Below, in pieces: positions 1-5,796 of a stretch of DNA of 5,796 nt. The stretch's first letter is position 1. Every line of letters starts with the position of its first letter. This DNA is from an uncultured Fretibacterium sp. (lineage in GTDB: Bacteria; Synergistota; Synergistia; Synergistales; Aminobacteriaceae), in assembly GCA_905373185.1 (NCBI GenBank), contig CAJPSE010000116.1, positions 1 to 5,796 of the forward strand. Direction: 5' to 3'. A model generated the notes under the pieces. The model saw only the letters and a program-made list of their open reading frames with translations. It had not been told where the DNA came from and did no database searches. Position numbers and translations under genes: made by a program.

Positions 1-1585
1 GGGCAAACAGATCGCCCTTGACGGCCTTCATGCTCTCAAGGCCCTCCCCCTCTTTCACCAGCGCCTCCTTCGCAGCCAGGACGATTTGCGCCCCCAACTT
101 TGTTGCAAGGGCAATTTGATCCTTTGTCATGCCTTTAGCCATGCCTCTTTTCTCTCCTTCCTCCGAATCCCGACAATGCGCCACCAGCTCGTAGGCCATC
201 ACGAAGAACAGGATACGGCCAAAGCTCGGGTAATCGACCGCCAGAGATTTTTTGAACACGAAACTCTCCACACGGCACACGATGGACTTCTTCTCGAACA
301 CACATCGCAGCAGGCCATTTCGATCCATTCCATTCAGAGGATCGTAAGGTTTTTGCGGATTGGGAAGTTCCAAGTCCTCAAAGAGGCGCTCGAAAAAACG
401 CCCAAGATCCTGGGCCATCGCCTCCGGGGCCTCGGTACGGATATATTTCTTGATAAAGCCGATCAGCCGGAACAGGTAGGCCGTATCGGTATAGGTGACG
501 ACCTCCTTGGTGATGAACGTACTCCCCTTGGAGTCCAGAGCCGCAAGGACGACGTTCAGCGCGGCCGTTCGCCTGAGGGACTCCTCGTCGATCTCATCCT
601 CATCCAGTTCCTCCAAGGCGCGCGCCTCGTTGCGGCGCTTCTGCTGGTTCTTCAAGACCAGCTCGTAGGCCGCCAGATAGAAGCCCCACAGAACCTCGTA
701 GGATAATCGGGCATTCTGCAAAATACGGCTCTTTTCTCCGAAGTTGTAGAAATAAATCTTGTCGTCTTCCAATAGGAGTCGCAGTGGGGAGGGAATCCCA
801 AACGTCAGGTGAGCATCCTTCAAAGCCCTCAGGTCTCCGGAGTTCAGCTGCATGATGTAGGTCAGGGAATCCGCAACCTTGTAGTACGACGCGTGAACGG
901 CAAACTTGCCCAACAACTGGCATTCCCAGCAGATGAGGTCGGGCGATCCCAGGTTGGAATTGAAGGAGAAGGTCGCACTCTGGCTCGAGAAGAGGGGAAA
1001 AGAGGTCTGAGAGACCCTGTCGCAGACGGAGGTCTGCCCACAGACGGAGCACACGGCCCCTCCCCCTCGCCTGACCTTGGGAAAAACATCCAGTTGGGGA
1101 TGGCAGACGGGCTGCCCGTAACAGAGCTTTTTCTTCGTGCCCCATAGAGACTTCTTATGCTCCTTCAGGTAAGCTGTTACCTCCTCCTGGAGCGACGCAG
1201 ACAAGTCCTCGAACGCCTCCGCCTCCCCCCTCCAGCTTGTGGCGCTTACCGACAGGGCGGGAACCGGCGTCGGCATCCGCTTCGGCAAACACAGCAGCTT
1301 TTTTTTCTCTTGGTCATAGCAAACGAGTTCCAGATTCTCCTTTTGCTTTTTCGTCGATCGATTCCACCAGTCGGAGGCCAGTTCCTCATAACAGGCCTCC
1401 AGAAACGGCGTCATCCGGTCATCCGGCGCCTCGATCGATACACCGTCAATATCCAGAACAACTTTGACATCCGGCCAGCGTTCCGCCTCCAAAGTCGTCT
1501 TATCTTTGGCGATGAAGTACAGCCCCATCAGGCCGGAATCGAACCACCAGTGCCCTCTCGCCTTGAACGTGTGTTGTATGACCAT
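1..1585 (-). CDS. cas8b: Type I-B Cascade large subunit Cas8b (Cst1-like, CXXC-CXXC), C-terminus outside window
   Basis: Large subunit of the type I-B CRISPR effector, expected to recognise the PAM and help open target DNA in the cytoplasm. The frame is open without a stop from ATG 1585 to the left edge, giving 528 visible residues. The N-terminus contains GHWWFDSGLMGLYF (residues 11-24), the kind of opening seen in Cst1 proteins. Two cysteine pairs, CSVC (179-182) and CWEC (219-222), form the family's CXXC-CXXC zinc-ribbon-like region. Position 18 nt after a small ORF and downstream of cas6 fits the I-B order; cas7, cas5 and cas3 would follow to the left. The start is ambiguous: GGAGGTG ends directly at ATG 1585, an unusually short spacing, and an in-frame GTG lies at 1594. 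The subtype rests on motif recognition, not a search. The family is fairly sure; the exact Cas8 subclass is less so. Confidence 0.82.
   Translation of the reverse strand, partial: MVIQHTFKARGHWWFDSGLMGLYFIAKDKTTLEAERWPDVKVVLDIDGVSIEAPDDRMTPFLEACYEELASDWWNRSTKKQKENLELVCYDQEKKKLLCLPKRMPTPVPALSVSATSWRGEAEAFEDLSASLQEEVTAYLKEHKKSLWGTKKKLCYGQPVCHPQLDVFPKVRRGGGAVCSVCGQTSVCDRVSQTSFPLFSSQSATFSFNSNLGSPDLICWECQLLGKFAVHASYYKVADSLTYIMQLNSGDLRALKDAHLTFGIPSPLRLLLEDDKIYFYNFGEKSRILQNARLSYEVLWGFYLAAYELVLKNQQKRRNEARALEELDEDEIDEESLRRTAALNVVLAALDSKGSTFITKEVVTYTDTAYLFRLIGFIKKYIRTEAPEAMAQDLGRFFERLFEDLELPNPQKPYDPLNGMDRNGLLRCVFEKKSIVCRVESFVFKKSLAVDYPSFGRILFFVMAYELVAHCRDSEEGEKRGMAKGMTKDQIALATKLGAQIVLAAKEALVKEGEGLESMKAVKGDLFA
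140..164 (-). promoter_or_regulatory. Internal ribosome binding site and in-frame ATG in cas8b, candidate Cas11 start
   Basis: Inside cas8b, the minus strand of 152-164 reads GGAGGAAGGAGAG, a strong Shine-Dalgarno-like tract. It lies 11 nt (from AAGGAG) before an in-frame ATG at 142, which is codon 482; a second ATG follows at 130. The peptide from there (MAKGMTKDQIALATKLGAQI onward) is lysine- and alanine-rich and looks helical. In several type I systems, including I-B, the small subunit Cas11 is translated from an internal start near the 3' end of cas8. This site has the right form and place, but the product's end lies outside the window. GAG/GAA/GGA codons could also create such a tract by chance. 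Confidence 0.45.
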
Positions 1586-1603
1586 CACCTCCACAGCGAT
1601 AAA

Positions 1604-1810
1604 TTAGCCCTGAACGGGCTTAAAAAAATCAGCAATCCCCTTTAACGCCTGGAGTATCAAGCCCCAAACGCCATTGGTTTTTCCAATATTGACCGGGCCA
1701 TTGATGACAGTGTAGGAGCAGCCATAATAGTTCTTAACCATACAGACATCAAGAGGCTTTTCTGTCGCCTCTTTTCCTTTCCTGTTTTTTCTTCTACGAA
1801 AATAGGACAT
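1604..1810 (-). CDS. 68-aa basic small protein or CreT-like toxin ORF between cas6 and cas8b
   Basis: Unrecognised as a protein family. The start ATG 1810 is preferred because AAGGGGG lies 7 nt upstream and the promoter -10 box is at 1837-1842; the in-frame ATG at 1846 would lie upstream of the transcription start. The N-terminus is very basic (MSYFRRRKNRKGK). Codons 5-7 are CGT AGA AGA and codon 10 is AGG, whereas Arg codons in the neighbouring genes are mostly CGN. Two Cys (23, 31) sit in the middle, and residues 48-63 (VWGLILQALKGIADFF) look like an amphipathic or membrane-active helix. Location between cas6 and cas8, a strong promoter, a good ribosome site and early tandem AGA codons match the plan of CreT, the tRNA-sequestering RNA toxin of type I-B CreTA. 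The toxic agent could instead be the peptide. The ORF ends with TAA in the same frame as cas8b, 18 nt before its ATG. A plain accessory protein cannot be excluded. Confidence 0.6.
   Translation of the reverse strand: MSYFRRRKNRKGKEATEKPLDVCMVKNYYGCSYTVINGPVNIGKTNGVWGLILQALKGIADFFKPVQG
1606..1620 (-). other. Hairpin at the stop codon of the small ORF
   Basis: The minus strand reads AGCCC-GTTCA-GGGCT, a perfect 5-bp GC-rich stem with a 5-nt loop. The T of GGGCT is the first base of the TAA stop. It is followed by AATTTAT, too poor in T to be a convincing terminator. It might partly attenuate transcription into cas8b or make cas8b translation depend on ribosomes finishing the small ORF. It may also be incidental. 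Confidence 0.35.
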
Positions 1811-1836
1811 AACTATACCCCCTTCTTTTCCAAGAG

Positions 1837-1865
1837 AGTATAGCATTCCTTTATCACACAGTCAA
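1837..1865 (-). promoter_or_regulatory. Strong sigma70-type promoter for the small ORF and cas8b
   Basis: On the minus strand, -35 TTGACT (1860-1865) is separated by exactly 17 bp from -10 TATACT (1837-1842); each box matches consensus at 5 of 6 positions. Transcription should start near 1830, giving a leader of about 20 nt before ATG 1810. No terminator is evident before cas8b, so this promoter probably also drives cas8b and the genes beyond it. Confidence 0.75.
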
Positions 1866-1873
1866 CATCATAT
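1848..1873 (+). promoter_or_regulatory. Predicted Cascade target (PAM CCT plus protospacer) over the small-ORF promoter
   Basis: The plus strand 1851-1873 matches the spacer-like stretch 1923-1945 at 17 of 23 positions (offset 72). Matched blocks are CACAG, CAACA and CATAT. Mismatches fall at spacer positions 1, 3, 6, 12 and 18, with 24 next; position 3 could be a G:T wobble. The preceding bases 1848-1850 are CCT, a sequence of the type accepted as PAM in several bacterial I-B systems. The site covers the -35 box and part of the -10/-35 spacer, so bound Cascade would block RNA polymerase. Similarity stops after position 23, which should favour binding over cleavage. Confidence 0.68.
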
Positions 1874-1896
1874 TGATATCGTTAACGCCGTATCAA
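1873..1896. repeat. Imperfect inverted repeat TTGATA...TATCAA around CGTTAACG
   Basis: TTGATA (1873-1878) and TATCAA (1891-1896) are inverted arms around the palindrome CGTTAACG (1880-1887). The arms are not exactly symmetric about its centre. The element lies 7 bp upstream of the -35 box of the minus-strand promoter and over the likely plus-strand promoter, so it could be an operator for a dimeric regulator. It could also arise from promoter boxes alone. Confidence 0.35.
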
Positions 1897-1901
1897 ATAA
1901 A
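1873..1901 (+). promoter_or_regulatory. Candidate promoter of the crRNA-like RNA
   Basis: -35 TTGATA (1873-1878, 5 of 6) is followed after 17 bp by AATAAA (1896-1901, 4 of 6), giving a start near 1908 inside the degenerate repeat. An alternative pair is TTAACG (1882-1887), 17 bp, TATAAA (1905-1910), starting near 1917. The alternative would yield an RNA beginning with a short 5' handle directly before the spacer-like part, needing no upstream Cas6 cut. Neither is certain. Confidence 0.4.
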
Positions 1902-1922
1902 ACCTATAAAAGGAATTTTTAT
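1890..1922 (+). repeat. Degenerate type I-B CRISPR repeat (psi-repeat)
   Basis: The plus strand contains ACCTATAAAAGGAATT (1902-1917). Many bacterial I-B repeats, recalled from general knowledge, end in ACCTATAAGGAATTGAAAC. The window copy differs by a 2-nt AA insertion in the loop and by TTTAT in place of the terminal GAAAC. The short stem CCT (1903-1905)/AGG (1911-1913) is kept. The 5' half is poorly conserved. Counting five bases after GGAATT puts the repeat end at 1922. This is a single diverged copy, not an array, and the genome's own repeat is not visible here. Confidence 0.55.
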
Positions 1923-1991
1923 CTGTCCCACAGGCAACAACATATCTTTCCATCCCCAGAACAAGCTCGGGAAGAATCGCTTTTTAATTTT
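1908..1991 (+). ncRNA. creA: CreA-like crRNA-like RNA directed at the small-ORF promoter
   Basis: Predicted small RNA made of the 3' part of the degenerate repeat, a spacer-like segment from 1923, and a T-rich end near 1981-1991. Its spacer-like part matches the promoter of the small ORF as expected for CreA, the antitoxin RNA of CreTA that loads into Cascade and represses creT with only partial complementarity. No clear second repeat follows; GCTTTTTAATTTTA (1979-1992) vaguely resembles a repeat start. The 5' end is inferred from weak promoter boxes. The symbol is given by analogy. Evidence is the repeat similarity, the target match with 6-nt periodic mismatches, and the position between cas6 and cas8. 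Confidence 0.6.
1963..1991 (+). terminator. Weak intrinsic-terminator-like end of the crRNA-like RNA
   Basis: AAGC (1963-1966) can pair with GCTT (1979-1982), with one further G-C pair if TC is bulged. The pairing runs into TTTTTAATTTT (1981-1991). The stem is short, but the T-tract is in the right orientation to end a plus-strand transcript before it runs antisense through cas6. Confidence 0.3.
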
Positions 1992-2040
1992 ATCACGCTC
2001 AATGACAATGATTTTGTTCGATCTCTCCTTCATTCTCTCT

Positions 2041-2784
2041 CTACTCCCGCGTCACGCACCCCCATCCCGCGCTGTTCTTCGCTCCCAGGCCGCAGTCGAG
2101 AGCGATTTGAAGCAGCTCCTGAGGCCCCTCGAGACGAAAGCGGCCCGACCAGCCCTTGATGGGAAAGGAGGACTCGGGGCTGAAGATCGCCACCCGCTCC
2201 AGCACGCGCCCCACGGGGGCGATGCGGACTGTCCCCTCCGGAACGGCCCGATCGGGGAAGAGCGCGCGGAACTTGCGCACCAGGTTGTTGTGTGCCGACA
2301 CGGCAAAATCCCTCTGGTACGGGCTGAAGTAAACCGTATAGGGCTTGCCGTTCCGATCCACCTGGCCGTAACAGGTGATGGGCGACAAGGTACGCACGGT
2401 CAGGGTCTCCCCATCCGCCCGCTGCTGTTCCGCCTCGATGCGTTCGCAGCGGACGACATTGTTGCCCAGCCGCAGATCCCCGGCGTTCAGCGCACCGCCG
2501 GCGATGCCGTCCATGGTATCGGTCACGGGCGTGGAGACCACCAGACGCAGCGGCAGCGGAAACAGGATGGCCCCATCCTCGAAGACGGGACGCTCCGCGG
2601 CGATGGGCCAGCTCATCGCAAAGAGCTTCATCCTCCGCCCATCGACACAATATCCCTCGTCGTGCAGGAACGCCGCCCGCTCGGGAGGCAGAACCGCATA
2701 GAGCATGGACTGGAACAGATGCAGGTTGGAGCGGGGAACTCGTATCCGACCCCCATCCCCCGTCAACCACAGCGTGATGTGCAT
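2041..2784 (-). CDS. cas6: CRISPR pre-crRNA endoribonuclease Cas6
   Basis: Metal-independent RNase that cuts CRISPR transcripts within the repeat to give crRNAs with an 8-nt 5' handle. Its 247 aa are normal for Cas6. The C-terminus carries the glycine-rich loop GLGAKNSAGWG (residues 232-242), the family signature, nearly at the end of the chain. Near the N-terminus, Tyr29 and His41 (FLHDEGY) sit where the catalytic Tyr/His of Cas6 proteins usually lie. The gene starts 5 nt after the stop of the upstream FAH-family gene with only a weak ribosome site, so translation is probably coupled to it. It is separated from cas8b by about 455 bp holding the CreTA-like module. With its own supply from the upstream operon, Cas6 would remain available even when the cas8b promoter is repressed. 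Family assignment is confident; subtype follows from context. Confidence 0.92.
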   Translation of the reverse strand: MHITLWLTGDGGRIRVPRSNLHLFQSMLYAVLPPERAAFLHDEGYCVDGRRMKLFAMSWPIAAERPVFEDGAILFPLPLRLVVSTPVTDTMDGIAGGALNAGDLRLGNNVVRCERIEAEQQRADGETLTVRTLSPITCYGQVDRNGKPYTVYFSPYQRDFAVSAHNNLVRKFRALFPDRAVPEGTVRIAPVGRVLERVAIFSPESSFPIKGWSGRFRLEGPQELLQIALDCGLGAKNSAGWGCVTRE

Positions 2785-2789
2785 GGTCC

Positions 2790-3575
2790 CTAGTCCCCGG
2801 CCCCGACGAAGCGGTTTCTCAGCACGCCGATACCGTCGATCTCCACCTCCACGCTGTCCCCGTCATGCACGGGAGCAACGCCGCTGGGCGTCCCCGTCGC
2901 GATGACGTCCCCCGCACGCAGCGTGGCGAAGCGGCTGATGTGCGCGATGATCCGGGGGACCCCGAAGATCATCTCCCCAAGATGGGCCTCCTGGACCACA
3001 CGGCCGTTCAGGCGGGTGCGGAGCACGGCCTCCGCGGGCATCTCCCGGCGCAGCAGGAGGCAGGGCCCCAGTGGGGCGAATCCGTCGAACCCCTTGCCCC
3101 GCGTCCACTGCCCATCCGCGCTCTGGAGCTCCCGCGCCGTGACGTCGTTGAAGCAGGCGTACCCCATCACGACGTCCAGGGCGTCCGCCTCGGGAACATT
3201 CTTGCAGTCGTGCCCGATCACGACGGCCAGCTCGCCCTCGTAGTCGATGCGCCCGGCCCAGGCGGGAAAGCGCACCGGCGCCTCATGTCCCGAGAGTGCG
3301 GTCAGGGCCTTCAGGAAGATGCAGGGCTCCGGCGGCAGCGCACTCTCCATCTCCCTCGCGTGATTGAGATAATTTATGCCCACGCACCAGATCGCCCGCG
3401 GCTCGCAGGGCGGCAGGCAGCGCATCCCCTCCAGGCTCTCCATCCGCCCCGTCGGTACCCCGCGCTCGTCCAGGAGCTCCACAAGCGCATCCCCTGACAT
3501 GCGCCCCACCATCACCCGTCCATCCCGCTCGAAGCGGACGATGCGGTCCCCGCAGTTCCATTTTCCCTCCGTCAT
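2790..3575 (-). CDS. Fumarylacetoacetate hydrolase (FAH) family protein
   Basis: Cytosolic metal-dependent enzyme of the FAH superfamily, which cleaves or decarboxylates/isomerises acylpyruvate-type oxo-acids such as fumarylpyruvate, HHDD or oxaloacetate. The exact substrate cannot be told here. The 261-aa protein shows IWCVGINYLNHA (62-73), YEGELAVVIG (112-121) with metal ligands Glu113 and Glu115, FNDVTAREL (142-150) with ligand Asp144, GKGFDGFAPLGP (160-171) and ATGTPSGV (226-233). ATG 3575 is chosen because AGGAGG lies 9 nt upstream; a TTG 21 nt further upstream would place that site inside the gene. The C-terminal FAH fold is complete, with a short N-terminal domain. It is the first gene of the minus-strand set and overlaps cas6 transcriptionally (5-nt gap). 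No neighbouring catabolic genes are visible, so its pathway is unknown. Confidence 0.93.
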   Translation of the reverse strand: MTEGKWNCGDRIVRFERDGRVMVGRMSGDALVELLDERGVPTGRMESLEGMRCLPPCEPRAIWCVGINYLNHAREMESALPPEPCIFLKALTALSGHEAPVRFPAWAGRIDYEGELAVVIGHDCKNVPEADALDVVMGYACFNDVTARELQSADGQWTRGKGFDGFAPLGPCLLLRREMPAEAVLRTRLNGRVVQEAHLGEMIFGVPRIIAHISRFATLRAGDVIATGTPSGVAPVHDGDSVEVEIDGIGVLRNRFVGAGD

Positions 3576-3613
3576 CTCATTGCGCCTCCTCTTCAAGATC
3601 GTCCTCCTGTCTC

Positions 3614-3642
3614 ATACTAACAAAAAGTGGGGGCTCGGGAAA
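3614..3642 (-). promoter_or_regulatory. Weak candidate promoter for the FAH-family gene and cas6
   Basis: On the minus strand, TAGTAT (3614-3619, 4 of 6 to the -10 consensus) lies 17 bp from TTTCCC (3637-3642, a poor -35), about 40 nt before ATG 3575. It is the best placed candidate but weak; the real promoter may use another sigma factor or an activator. Confidence 0.25.
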
Positions 3643-3710
3643 GTGGAAAAGCGTACCGGAACGCCGCCAGGGGATAATGAATCTACCGTTCGGAGCATGG
3701 GGCACGACCG

Positions 3711-3839
3711 TTCGTTCGGACGCGAAAAGGCCGGTACCCAGCGGGATAGTTTTCCATCCCAATGCTTGCCTTTTATCGGCATTTTTATACAATAGAGCGG
3801 GAGAACATCGGAATGGCGAAACGTCGAAGTCCGAACGAA
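3711..3839. repeat. 11-bp inverted repeat flanking the divergent promoter region
   Basis: TTCGTTCGGAC (3711-3721) is exactly inverted as GTCCGAACGAA (3829-3839), 107 bp apart. A third copy of the core CGTTCGGA occurs at 3687-3694. The copies bracket the predicted promoter of the cyclase gene and could be binding sites for one regulator with DNA looping. No coding use of this stretch is convincing. Confidence 0.35.
3766..3793 (+). promoter_or_regulatory. Candidate promoter of the DISM-GGDEF gene
   Basis: TTGCCT (3766-3771, 4 of 6) and TACAAT (3788-3793, 5 of 6) are separated by 16 bp. Transcription would start near 3800, giving a leader of about 60 nt before ATG 3862. Confidence 0.5.
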
Positions 3840-3861
3840 GCCCGAAAGGATTGGAGCGCTC

Positions 3862-5139
3862 ATGCGTCGAAACCGCGTTTTGAAGTTTTTTCTTGTTCCT
3901 TTCCTCATCATCCTGGGCAGCGTCCTTTCCGAAAGAGCCGACGCCGACTTTAATAACGCCCTTTTCCCTCTCTTGCTGGGAATCGAGAAGATGACCGTTC
4001 ATTCGCCGAGCCTCAAGGACCCCGGAAAGGATATCCCCTTTGAATCGATATCGGGCGACATCATTACGCAGAACTCCTTCAACGGCTCGAGCTGGTTTCG
4101 CATCCCCATGGAGGACTTGGTACGAAATATCGAGGGCGTGTCCCTGCGTCCCGATGAGGGCGGGGTCCTGATGATCACCTCGCCCCACATCACACACGTG
4201 GACTGCTTCGTCCCCAAGACGCTCTCCTCCTACGAGCACTACTCCTACAACAAGGATTCGAGGAATGCCCTCCAGTTCCTCTATACACGCTATCCGGTCC
4301 TCTGGCTGCCGCCCCTGAATGGGGCCACCAGGGATGGCTACGTCTATCTGAACGTGCGCTCCGATTACCCCGTCGCCGCCAGGCTGTGCCTGCTGTCGCC
4401 GCTGTCCTTTATCCGTTTCTTCTTCAAATCCATGATTATCCAGATCGTTTTCGTGGGGATCATGATTGCGTTCGTCGTGACGTACTTCCTCTTCTACATG
4501 ATGACCGGCGAAAAGGTATACCGCACCTTCATGATCATTCAGCTGAGTAATACTTTGCTCGCCGCCTCCTTCAACGGGCACTTTCATGCCTATCTGAAGC
4601 TGCCGGCCCCGCTCTCCGTATTCATGACCTGGTCGGTGTTCGGGTTGACAAACGTCGTAGGATCCCGCTTTTTCCTATCCGAGCTTCAGGGGGCCCCAAG
4701 AATCCGAAAGGCCTACAGGCCAGTCTTCTACATCCAGTCCGCCCTGGCGCTCGGGGTTCTGGCCGCGGCCATGAGCGGCCGTTTCTTCTGGGTCTGTATC
4801 GGCGCCACCTTTGCCTTCTTTCTGAGCCTCGTCGGCTCCGTGCTTCTGTTCGTCCAGATGGTCAGGACGAGGACCCCCCTGCGCAGCCTGCTCCTCTATG
4901 CGGGGTCCTACACCGTCTTTTTCTTTGGCATAGGGAGCATGTTTCTGGGAACGTACTACAACCCCTACTATCTCAGCAGGCTTTCCTATCCGGACATCCT
5001 CTACATGACGCTGCTGACCGCCGCTCCTTTTTTTCTATTCTGCGGAAGCTCTTCGAGAGCCGGGCTCGATTCGACAACTACAACCTCCTGCAGGCGCAGA
5101 GCGCCCACTATCGCGAGCTCAGCCAACGGGACGGACTGA
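3862..5139 (+). CDS. 7TM-DISM sensor half of a diguanylate cyclase, frameshifted before its GGDEF domain
   Basis: Membrane receptor module in the inner membrane. Residues 1-28 form a signal peptide (basic MRRNR, then a hydrophobic core). Residues about 30-185 are an extracytoplasmic, probably beta-rich domain resembling the DISMED ligand-binding domains. Seven hydrophobic segments follow at about 190-213, 219-240, 252-272, 286-305, 308-333, 340-362 and 377-395, matching the 7TM-DISM family. ATG 3862 has GGAG 5 nt upstream. From residue 392 the frame reads an unrelated Ser/Thr/Arg-rich tail to a stop at 5139, while the -1 frame continues into linker and GGDEF domain. The sensor therefore normally should be one chain of about 613 aa with the next entry. 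As read, this half would give a receptor without output. The ligand is unknown. Confidence 0.85.
   Translation: MRRNRVLKFFLVPFLIILGSVLSERADADFNNALFPLLLGIEKMTVHSPSLKDPGKDIPFESISGDIITQNSFNGSSWFRIPMEDLVRNIEGVSLRPDEGGVLMITSPHITHVDCFVPKTLSSYEHYSYNKDSRNALQFLYTRYPVLWLPPLNGATRDGYVYLNVRSDYPVAARLCLLSPLSFIRFFFKSMIIQIVFVGIMIAFVVTYFLFYMMTGEKVYRTFMIIQLSNTLLAASFNGHFHAYLKLPAPLSVFMTWSVFGLTNVVGSRFFLSELQGAPRIRKAYRPVFYIQSALALGVLAAAMSGRFFWVCIGATFAFFLSLVGSVLLFVQMVRTRTPLRSLLLYAGSYTVFFFGIGSMFLGTYYNPYYLSRLSYPDILYMTLLTAAPFFLFCGSSSRAGLDSTTTTSCRRRAPTIASSANGTD
5028..5034 (+). other. T7 run at the frame change (possible -1 slip site)
   Basis: Frame 1 reads CCT TTT TTT CTA here; the GGDEF frame is reached by slipping back one base or by one extra T (T8). 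T TTT TTT fits the -1 slippery pattern X XXY YYZ. A 5-bp hairpin (TCGAG 5053-5057 / CTCGA 5065-5069) lies 18 nt downstream, further than the usual 5-9 nt for a stimulator. Homopolymer mutation, phase variation or a sequencing undercall are at least as likely. Confidence 0.6.
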
Positions 5140-5702
5140 CAGGGCTGTACAATCGCTCCTACCTGGAACAGATCCTCAACGAGAGCGTCCGGCATGCCGA
5201 GAAGATGGGGAAGAACCTTTCCTTCATCATGCTCGACATCGATCATTTCAAAAATTTCAACGACACGTGGGGACACCAGGAGGGGGACCGGGCACTTGCG
5301 TTCGTGGCCCGGATCATCCGGGATTCCCTTAGGGAACAGGACGTCGCCACACGCTACGGAGGGGAGGAGTTCAGCATCGTTCTGGCCGGGGCGGACCTGC
5401 TCATCGCAAACATCGTTGCGGAACGAATCCGCAGAAGCTGCGAGACCCGCTCCCTCTCTCTCGGCAAGTACAAGACCCTGACGGTCTCGCTGGGGATCTC
5501 CCTGTTCCGCCCCGGGGAGACGCCGGAAAGTCTGATTCGGCGAGCCGACGAGGCCCTCTATCGGGCAAAGAGGAATGGGCGAAACCGCGCGGAAGCGGAG
5601 GCTCCTCGACCGTCCCATGCCCCCCGGAAACCTTCGCTGTCCCCCTCAGCGGCCGACGGCTCCCCCCGTCCCCAAGCCCCGAAAAAAGGGTCGGAACGAT
5701 AG
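5034..5702 (+). CDS. GGDEF diguanylate cyclase half (continuation of the DISM sensor gene)
   Basis: Cytoplasmic output domain making cyclic di-GMP from two GTP. Read in the -1 frame from 5034, a linker (RKLFESRARFDNYNLLQAQ) leads to DGLTGLYNR, the usual GGDEF entry motif. LDIDHFKNFND follows, with the metal-binding Asp, and then the active-site GGEEF at about residues 500-504 of the joined chain. REQD ending five residues before GGEEF is an RxxD inhibitory I-site, so product feedback is expected. The domain ends with ADEALYRAKRNGRN, followed by a Pro/Ser/Arg-rich tail of about 35 residues that looks disordered. The frame has no ATG, GTG or TTG between the slip site and ATG 5205, and that ATG lies inside the domain after DGLTGLYNR. 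An independent gene could therefore not encode a whole cyclase, so this is one gene with the preceding entry. Confidence 0.85.
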   Translation, partial: SILRKLFESRARFDNYNLLQAQSAHYRELSQRDGLTGLYNRSYLEQILNESVRHAEKMGKNLSFIMLDIDHFKNFNDTWGHQEGDRALAFVARIIRDSLREQDVATRYGGEEFSIVLAGADLLIANIVAERIRRSCETRSLSLGKYKTLTVSLGISLFRPGETPESLIRRADEALYRAKRNGRNRAEAEAPRPSHAPRKPSLSPSAADGSPRPQAPKKGSER

Positions 5703-5719
5703 AACGGGGAGGCGCGGGC

Positions 5720-5796
5720 ATGGCGTTCTACATCGGGGTGGATATCGGCGTGTTCGGCATCGACGAGGTGTACAACCAGCAGCGCCTGAACGACAT
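5720..5796 (+). CDS. N-terminus of an unidentified protein, truncated by window end
   Basis: ATG 5720 is preceded by GGGGAGG with 7-nt spacing and lies 17 nt after the cyclase stop, so it is probably in the same operon. Only 25 residues are visible, beginning MAFYIGVDIG and continuing VFGIDEVYNQQRLND. The YIGVDIG opening resembles the first strand of actin-like ATPase/sugar-kinase folds, but what follows lacks the expected phosphate-loop pattern, so no family is assigned. Confidence 0.5.
   Translation, partial: MAFYIGVDIGVFGIDEVYNQQRLND

Follow-up and report, generated by a model that had tools for sequence, protein, structure and literature searches.

A predicted guide RNA aimed at the promoter ahead of cas8b in a type I-B locus of an uncultured Fretibacterium

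Introduction

What occupies the gap between cas6 and cas8b in the type I-B CRISPR (clustered regularly interspaced short palindromic repeats) locus of an uncultured Fretibacterium sp., and does it act on the cas genes around it? The gap lies in a stretch of 5,796 nucleotides (nt) that was analysed whole and is called the window here (assembly GCA_905373185.1, contig CAJPSE010000116.1, positions 1 to 5,796). A preliminary description of this DNA had proposed a CreTA-like module, with a small open reading frame (ORF) and, on the opposite strand, a degenerate repeat and a spacer-like segment matching the promoter of that ORF. Our comparison of sequences argues that a guide RNA quite probably leads the type I-B Cascade to repress the promoter of a predicted operon made of the small ORF and cas8b, a form of autorepression. 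Two genes delimit the gap:

2041..2784, minus strand: cas6 (TIGR01877, 100.1 bits against a cut-off of 58.65; PF01881, E = 1.1e-29)
2..1594, minus strand: cas8b, the large subunit of the type I-B effector, its C-terminus cut by the window end (PADLOC Cas8b, E = 5e-10)

The minus-strand order is cas6 (2784-2041), a gap of 446 nt, and cas8b (1594 to past the window end), and the gap has 40% G+C against 58% for the window. The 531-aa cas8b frame has no match in Pfam or NCBIfam. The closest relative with available DNA, G030, has a Cas8b 91% identical to that of the window and the order cas6, cas8b, cas7, cas5, cas3, cas4, cas1, followed by a CRISPR array in which the repeat CTTTGAAACCTTCCTTTGAGGGATGGAAAC occurs at least 86 times; type I-B Cas7 and Cas1 were identified in it. 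With cas6 recognized by TIGR01877 and Cas8b by PADLOC, the locus stands near cas6 within type I cas genes, which is the location of CreTA.

Results

Pairing of a spacer-like segment with the promoter ahead of cas8b

The G030 array repeat CTTTGAAACCTTCCTTTGAGGGATGGAAAC served as the probe for degenerate repeats. The elements of the guide unit and of its target are as follows:

1946..1975, minus strand: psiR1, degenerate CRISPR repeat TCTTCCCGAGCTTGTTCTGGGGATGGAAAG (15/30 identical to the G030 repeat)
1912..1945, minus strand: psiS, spacer-like guide segment of about 34 nt, its 3' boundary inferred (matches the promoter site at 17/17 non-sixth positions of the first 20 nt)
1882..1911, minus strand: psiR2 candidate, a second and more degenerate repeat (13/30 identical; 11/22 over the first positions)
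1987..1995, minus strand: putative guide promoter, extended -10 TGaTAAAAT (by eye)
1874..1876, minus strand: PAM-like TCA directly 5' of the target (PAM, protospacer-adjacent motif; passages of PMC4860712 and PMC8482600 name TCA as a type I-B PAM)
1854..1873, minus strand: guide target in the promoter, with 20 nt of pairing (guide/target comparison)
1837..1865, minus strand: target promoter TTGACT-17-TATACT (10/12 consensus positions, promoter scan)

The psiS segment begins ATATGTTGTTGCCTGTGGGACAG, and the target site, starting at 1873 of the minus strand, reads ATATGATGTTGACTGTGTGAT. Type I complexes leave every sixth guide base unpaired. Guide and target match at positions 1-5, 7-11, 13-17, 19 and 20 and mismatch at 6, 12, 18 and 21; within the first 20 nt, each of the 17 non-sixth positions is paired and 6, 12 and 18 are not, which is the Cascade pattern. 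The seed (1-5 plus 7-11) pairs at 10 of 10 positions next to a TCA in the promoter of a small gene, as in CreTA; for CreA, experiments described in part of PMC8501985 left positions 6 and 12 free and required 1-5 plus 7-11. Over 22 nt the pairing covers 18 of the 19 non-sixth positions, a value that none of 2,000 dinucleotide shuffles of the gap attained (best shuffle, 15), and the next-best place for the guide on either strand of the whole window reaches 12/20.

The -35 box of TTGACT-17-TATACT falls under guide positions 9-14. A second promoter-like site of equal score, TTGATA-18-TATGAT (1896-1867, minus strand), has its -10 inside the target. The targeted promoter is the nearest strong promoter upstream of cas8b. 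Two parts of the preliminary description hold, the near-consensus promoter of a small minus-strand ORF (1865-1837) and the spacer-like segment in the gap that matches it across the -35 box. Its geometry needs correction. The repeat and spacer had been placed on the plus strand, where none of the six best matches to the full repeat, or to its last 14 nt, falls within the gap; the flank is TCA and not CCT; and an RNA had been expected from 1908-1991 of the plus strand, whereas the guide reads on the minus strand and is predicted to span about 1980-1882. The guide, target, ORF and cas8b are therefore co-directional in the window and not divergent, although in two of the relatives described below (L003 and L007) the guides do read away from cas8b.

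The last 8 nt of psiR1, corresponding to the 5' handle of a CRISPR RNA (crRNA), agree with the G030 repeat at 7/8 positions, so the handle is kept as it is in CreTA. The last 11 nt agree at 10/11, the best place in the gap for that part of the repeat. This handle, GATGGAAAG, and the spacer read in the same direction as the ORF and the cas genes. The unit is a lone crRNA-like guide outside an array, as in CreR. Upstream of the repeat an extended -10, TGNTAAAAT, is seen by eye in the window and G030 alike (TGcTAAAAT in the same place of G030); the promoter scan of the window did not call it. The predicted fold of the guide RNA is no better than that of shuffles (z = -0.96).

Guide and target pairs in related loci

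Absence of the match from related loci had been named in the preliminary description as an argument against such a module. Fifteen relatives have usable upstream DNA (L001, L002, L003, L004, L005, L007, L014, L015, L016 (G030), L018 (G129), L043, L044, L046, L049 and L051). L006 and L048 (same place, less than 180 nt upstream), L045 (240 nt) and L008, L009 and L050 (no upstream DNA) were left out, and L040, L041 and L047 are repeats of L003, L004 and L007. Strong pairs were found in four of the 15 (L001, L003, L007 and L014) and weak ones in two (G129 and G030). L014 was missed while the handle was required more strictly and was found in a looser scan, so the negatives depend on the threshold.

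By kinship the locus belongs with the Synergistota: L001 is a Synergistaceae metagenome-assembled genome, and protein P0035 is named Cloacibacillus evryensis. The L001 handle (8/8 against the G030 repeat) ends at 6724, and its guide matches an inverted site at 6399 with 17 of 19 positions, a value that 1 of 2,000 shuffles reached. Between target site and guide stands an ORF of 65 aa, preceded by a good Shine-Dalgarno sequence (by eye), with cas8b behind. In the Firmicutes L003 and L007, whose guides both start TAGTTTTTT, the targets lie about 15 and about 145 nt ahead of the cas8b ATG. Their pairs match at 13/13 positions (over 15 nt in L003), with 2 and 1 of 2,000 shuffles as good, respectively. 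Both guides are lone mini-CRISPRs (L003 339-295, L007 3975-3931, minus strand) with a spacer of about 15 nt before the next repeat (by eye), aimed just ahead of cas8b. A crRNA this short would fit repression without cleavage, judging from a passage of PMC10551041. In L014 (G027; guide at 3971-3885, minus strand) the guide pairing covers the -35 of TTGACT-17-TATAAT (by eye), with 15/15 non-sixth positions over 17 nt, a pair that carries no shuffle statistic. It stands about 260 nt before a cas6-like frame, with no frame of 60 codons between; the targeted near-consensus promoter likely drives the guide itself and then the cas6-like frame, a self-limiting layout. No small ORF was seen with the guides of L003, L007 and L014.

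In G129, one of the two with weak pairs, the handle (8/8) ends at 12857, and the best all-position site overlaps the -10 of TTGACA-17-TAAACT. By eye, the product of a 51-aa ORF downstream of this site (L018, 12669-12824) is strongly hydrophobic, as small toxins often are. In G030 the handle is 7/8 and the homologous site, TCA-GTGGT.CT, pairs at positions 1-5, 7 and 8 (chance 7e-5, for a single specified place). Compared with the window, eight positions have changed in guide and target alike, including six of the seven paired ones. The ORF frame of G030 (51 aa) is interrupted, possibly by an error of the draft genome; its later part, in another frame, resembles the C-terminus of the window ORF (L016, 16455-16670), and the guide seed is shortened too.

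In most relatives without a pair, cas6 and cas8b stand too close together to leave space for one. In L004, L005, L015, L043, L044, L046, L049 and L051 a frame of cas6 length directly adjoins cas8b (taken as cas6 from length and place in L046, L049 and L051), and the upstream stretch searched in these eight held no comparable pair. The best pairs of L044 (12/15) and L005 (14/19), both with 7/8 handles, were judged to be chance, and the top matches of L049 are copies of array units. In L002 a gene other than cas6 stands about 120 nt ahead of cas8b.

Sixth positions as a likely mark of guide pairing

Six pairs (window, G030, L001, G129, L003 and L007) match at positions 6, 12 and 18 in 0, 2 and 0 of 6 cases, compared with an average of 5.33 of 6 for the other positions from 1 to 17. 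Because the pairs were picked by their non-sixth positions, selection leaves only the sixth-position counts unaffected. The three bases flanking the targets of the seven pairs, L014 included, are TCA (three), TTA (three) and TTG (one), all on the type I-B PAM list printed in a section of PMC8482600. The -35 box lies under the target in the window and also, as judged by eye, in G030 and L014.

Several observations weigh against repression by a Cascade-bound guide. The match of psiR1 to the repeat is modest, since its 15/30 is not among the six best minus-strand places of the window and the score of its last 14 nt (10) is equalled at four other listed minus-strand places and exceeded at one (11). 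psiR1 is convincing because it is in phase with the guide and target pairing. psiR2 is weak, its 13/30 being the best among 17 offsets tried. L014 pairs at all of its first 20 positions, 6, 12 and 18 included, and with it the counts become 1, 3 and 1 of 7. The L001 seed has a mismatch at position 5. The G129 pair is marginal (14/19, reached in 42 of 2,000 shuffles; mismatches at seed positions 4, 5 and 9), a second site there has a better seed (8/10), and L005 yielded a pair with the same 14/19 that is not credible in that locus. G030 fails the blind scan (best 11/19, reached in 1,629 of 2,000 shuffles), its pairing at 1-5, 7 and 8 does not reach the 1-5 plus 7-11 that haloarchaea require, and the -35 and -10 over its target were seen by eye and not called by the promoter scan. 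In the window a weaker promoter-like site, TTGATG-17-TATTAT (1752-1724, 9/12), lies inside the ORF, and cas8b may have its promoter there. Finally, the array spacers of the relative gave no phage match from which the PAM of this system could be derived, and their genome matches, which were not inspected singly, look mostly like other arrays.

Two explanations dispense with regulation by a guide. The unit could be the relic of an old array, a lone repeat and spacer whose match to the promoter arose by chance or local duplication; the poor repeats and the ungapped L014 pair would suit it. This we regard as very improbable, as the match is far above chance, the relatives hold similar pairs of different sequence, and local duplication would not give six pairs that mismatch at sixth positions and stop pairing near position 20. 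Alternatively, the two copies could be operator sites of an ordinary protein repressor, as their direct orientation 72 nt apart in the window and the shared start of the L003 and L007 guides might suggest. We give this little credence: a CRISPR handle precedes one copy in the correct phase and a PAM-like flank the other, the copies are direct in the window, L003 and L007 but inverted in L001 and L014, and beyond L003 and L007 no motif is common to the seven pairs (by eye). The handle, the PAM-like flank, the seed, the sixth-position mismatches and the relatives together give good support to a predicted CRISPR-guided repression module between cas6 and cas8b, as the preliminary description had it.

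The small ORF ahead of cas8b

The small ORF has the following features:

1604..1810, minus strand: small ORF of 68 aa, first gene of the likely operon, in the position of creT (ORF list; database protein P0002 is identical)
1818..1824, minus strand: Shine-Dalgarno sequence AAGGGGG (by eye)
1790..1795, minus strand: two consecutive AGA codons, codons 6 and 7 of the ORF (codon count)
1751..1773, minus strand: possible RNA stem-loop AAGAGGC / GCCUCUU inside the ORF (RNA folds)

The AAGGGGG lies 7 nt ahead of the ORF start at 1810. The stop is at 1604 and the GTG start codon of cas8b at 1594, with 9 nt between, so that the two look like one operon. A longer version of 80 aa, starting at 1846, was rejected as its start would lie upstream of the -10 box. 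Searches by sequence among 5.8 billion proteins found five homologues (P0001-P0005), and a profile search found the same five. One of them, P0002, is identical to the window ORF. Their first 43 residues are nearly constant and are followed by two different C-termini, as if these had been swapped by recombination. P0004 and P0005 end in SLWR, and their genes are inferred to overlap the start of cas8b. The ORF matched no family of Pfam or PADLOC. A search of 180 genomes of the class gave a match at E ≤ 1 in 36 of them, the best at 0.012, with 0.096 at the homologous place of G030. The structure prediction (mean predicted local distance difference test score, 49) was not used further. The ORF would appear to be a fast-changing element under the switch, either a toxin (peptide or RNA) or a helper, and the chance that it is toxic seems to us somewhat below even.

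One alternative is that this is a CreTA addiction pair, in which the guide mainly silences a toxin ORF and cas8b is a mere neighbour. Such a toxin might be a small basic peptide or, as in Haloarcula hispanica, an RNA sequestering the rare AGA tRNA. By eye, the ORFs of the window, G030 and L001 follow good Shine-Dalgarno sequences, and the tandem AGA and stem-loop of the window are elements listed for the H. hispanica CreT in part of PMC8501985. AGA accounts for 19 of 4,283 codons (4.4 per 1,000) in 11 genes of the window and its relative, and the stem-loop folds with z = -2.28 (-3.55 in a second fold, whose stretch was picked after the first). The rapid change of the ORF, with its alternative C-termini and the different ORFs in L001 and G129 (by eye), would suit a toxin; so would G030, whose interrupted ORF and shortened guide seed look as if the toxin had been lost first. 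Previously identified creTA genes surround cas6, according to a passage of PMC10097628. Against this, the AGA pair of the window is at codons 6-7 and not right behind the start, AGA codons count for little in an AT-rich ORF, the ORF starts of G030 and L001 have no tandem rare codons, the guides of L003, L007 and L014 come without a visible small ORF, and with cas8b so close behind, the promoter would likely drive it too. An addiction pair of this kind is thus possible, though we would not call it probable. tRNA sequestration as a general mechanism was rejected, since the tandem AGA is not common to the relatives: the window ORF shows a Shine-Dalgarno sequence, AGA AGA and a possible stem-loop, which recall the tRNA-sequestering anatomy, but early tandem rare codons are missing from the ORFs of G030 and L001.

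The opposite alternative is a pure CreR, in which the guide just tunes the cas8b operon and the ORF is a leader whose product is unimportant. The guides aimed ahead of cas8b (L003 and L007) or of the cas6-like frame (L014) with no small ORF in view point this way, and so does the poor conservation of the ORF C-terminus. The near-constancy of the N-terminal 43 residues among the database variants speaks for a product that matters, as does the frame itself, which is open behind a good Shine-Dalgarno sequence in the window and L001 and open in the four other database variants. A pure CreR is as possible as the addiction pair, and we would not call it probable either.

Discussion

In the repression that we favour, a guide RNA would be transcribed in the cas direction from its own likely promoter, cut by Cas6 and loaded into Cascade. 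The cut RNA would begin AUGGAAAG at 1953 and extend to about 1890 of the minus strand. The loaded Cascade would sit on the -35 box and block RNA polymerase, binding without cleavage; because the pairing fades after position 20, binding is presumably favoured over cleavage. Repression would lower the small ORF and, if the transcript runs on, cas8b and the genes behind it, one transcript being presumably common to the ORF and cas8b. Cascade would then hold its own level down, in the logic of CreR, and the repression would be relieved when Cascade runs low, when crRNAs compete for it or when anti-CRISPR proteins act. Loss or inhibition of Cascade, by mutation or by an anti-CRISPR protein, would release fresh Cas proteins together with the small ORF, which would add the logic of CreTA or CrePA if it is toxic. 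Passages of PMC12737573 and PMC13131331 describe such release and repression for CreR, and the latter includes autorepression of a type I-B system. Because the targeted promoter heads an apparent operon into cas8b, CreR fits at least as well as CreTA; of the CreTA likeness first proposed, the guided repression module is well supported, and a toxin with its antitoxin guide, CreTA in the strict sense, is a possible further reading.

Tentatively, a single guide may have two outputs, limiting Cascade and silencing a fast-evolving toxin gene at the head of the cas8b operon. If so, loss of Cascade would trigger the toxin (addiction), and an anti-CRISPR protein would trigger the toxin and fresh Cas proteins together. 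The Synergistota loci would then link CreR to CreTA, a toxin gene having been placed under a CreR promoter. In any of these forms, repression by Cascade with a guide RNA would extend to loci of the Synergistota, and the sixth-position signature, present in six of the seven natural pairs, offers a simple way to find further such guides without RNA data.

Surroundings of the locus

An Rfam scan gave four sub-threshold matches, every one outside the cas6-cas8b gap. A DNA search with the gap as query returned short matches only (best E = 0.0078), none of them in G030, and a search of viral contigs with Cas8b and the small ORF found relatives of neither. Elsewhere in the window, at 3862-5702, a 7TMR-DISM-like frame (3862-5139, below the Pfam cut-off) stands beside a GGDEF frame (5205-5702) in a different frame; the two are perhaps one interrupted signalling gene.

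Comparison with known systems

The locus resembles CreR, known from types I-B, I-E and V-A, in having a lone degenerate guide in the cas locus that is partly complementary to a promoter likely driving an effector gene, with predicted repression by Cascade. It differs in the small ORF between the regulated promoter and cas8b. CreR generally has no coupled toxin gene, and this ORF is a candidate for one. With CreTA of Haloarcula hispanica and its relatives (type I-B) it shares the position between cas6 and cas8, the degenerate repeat, the spacer with seed 1-5 plus 7-11 and the PAM beside a target in a small-gene promoter. The strong Shine-Dalgarno sequence, tandem AGA and stem-loop recall the tRNA-sequestering anatomy of H. 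hispanica and H. hubeiense, which is a strong Shine-Dalgarno sequence, a start codon with tandem rare codons and a stem-loop. A psiR2 is present in most but not all CreTA members, and the window has a candidate (13/30, 11/22, best of 17 offsets). Unlike in CreTA, the guide of the window precedes the small gene and likely has a promoter of its own, the 68-aa ORF runs up to cas8b, and the pairing reaches position 20.

CrePA is similar in having a guide-repressed gene that anti-CRISPR proteins would release. CreP is typically a KilA-N protein, according to part of PMC12737573, and the window ORF, with no Pfam or PADLOC match, shows no such domain. The scaRNA/Cas9 system of Francisella novicida, as a passage of PMC9458426 presents it, likewise makes an effector into a transcriptional repressor by a degenerate repeat and short complementarity; it is of type II, with other RNAs and targets. 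Among the matches listed from the open-licence literature there was no account of such a locus, and those for Synergistota names with CreTA or CreR held neither CreTA nor a cas-regulating RNA.

CreTA, CreR and CrePA are already in print; the new part is the variable small ORF between a self-targeted promoter and cas8b. This cargo ORF stands directly between the likely self-repressed promoter and the effector gene. If it is toxic, the locus shows an autoregulatory guide in the course of becoming an addiction module, and the relation of CreR to CreTA becomes testable in one place.

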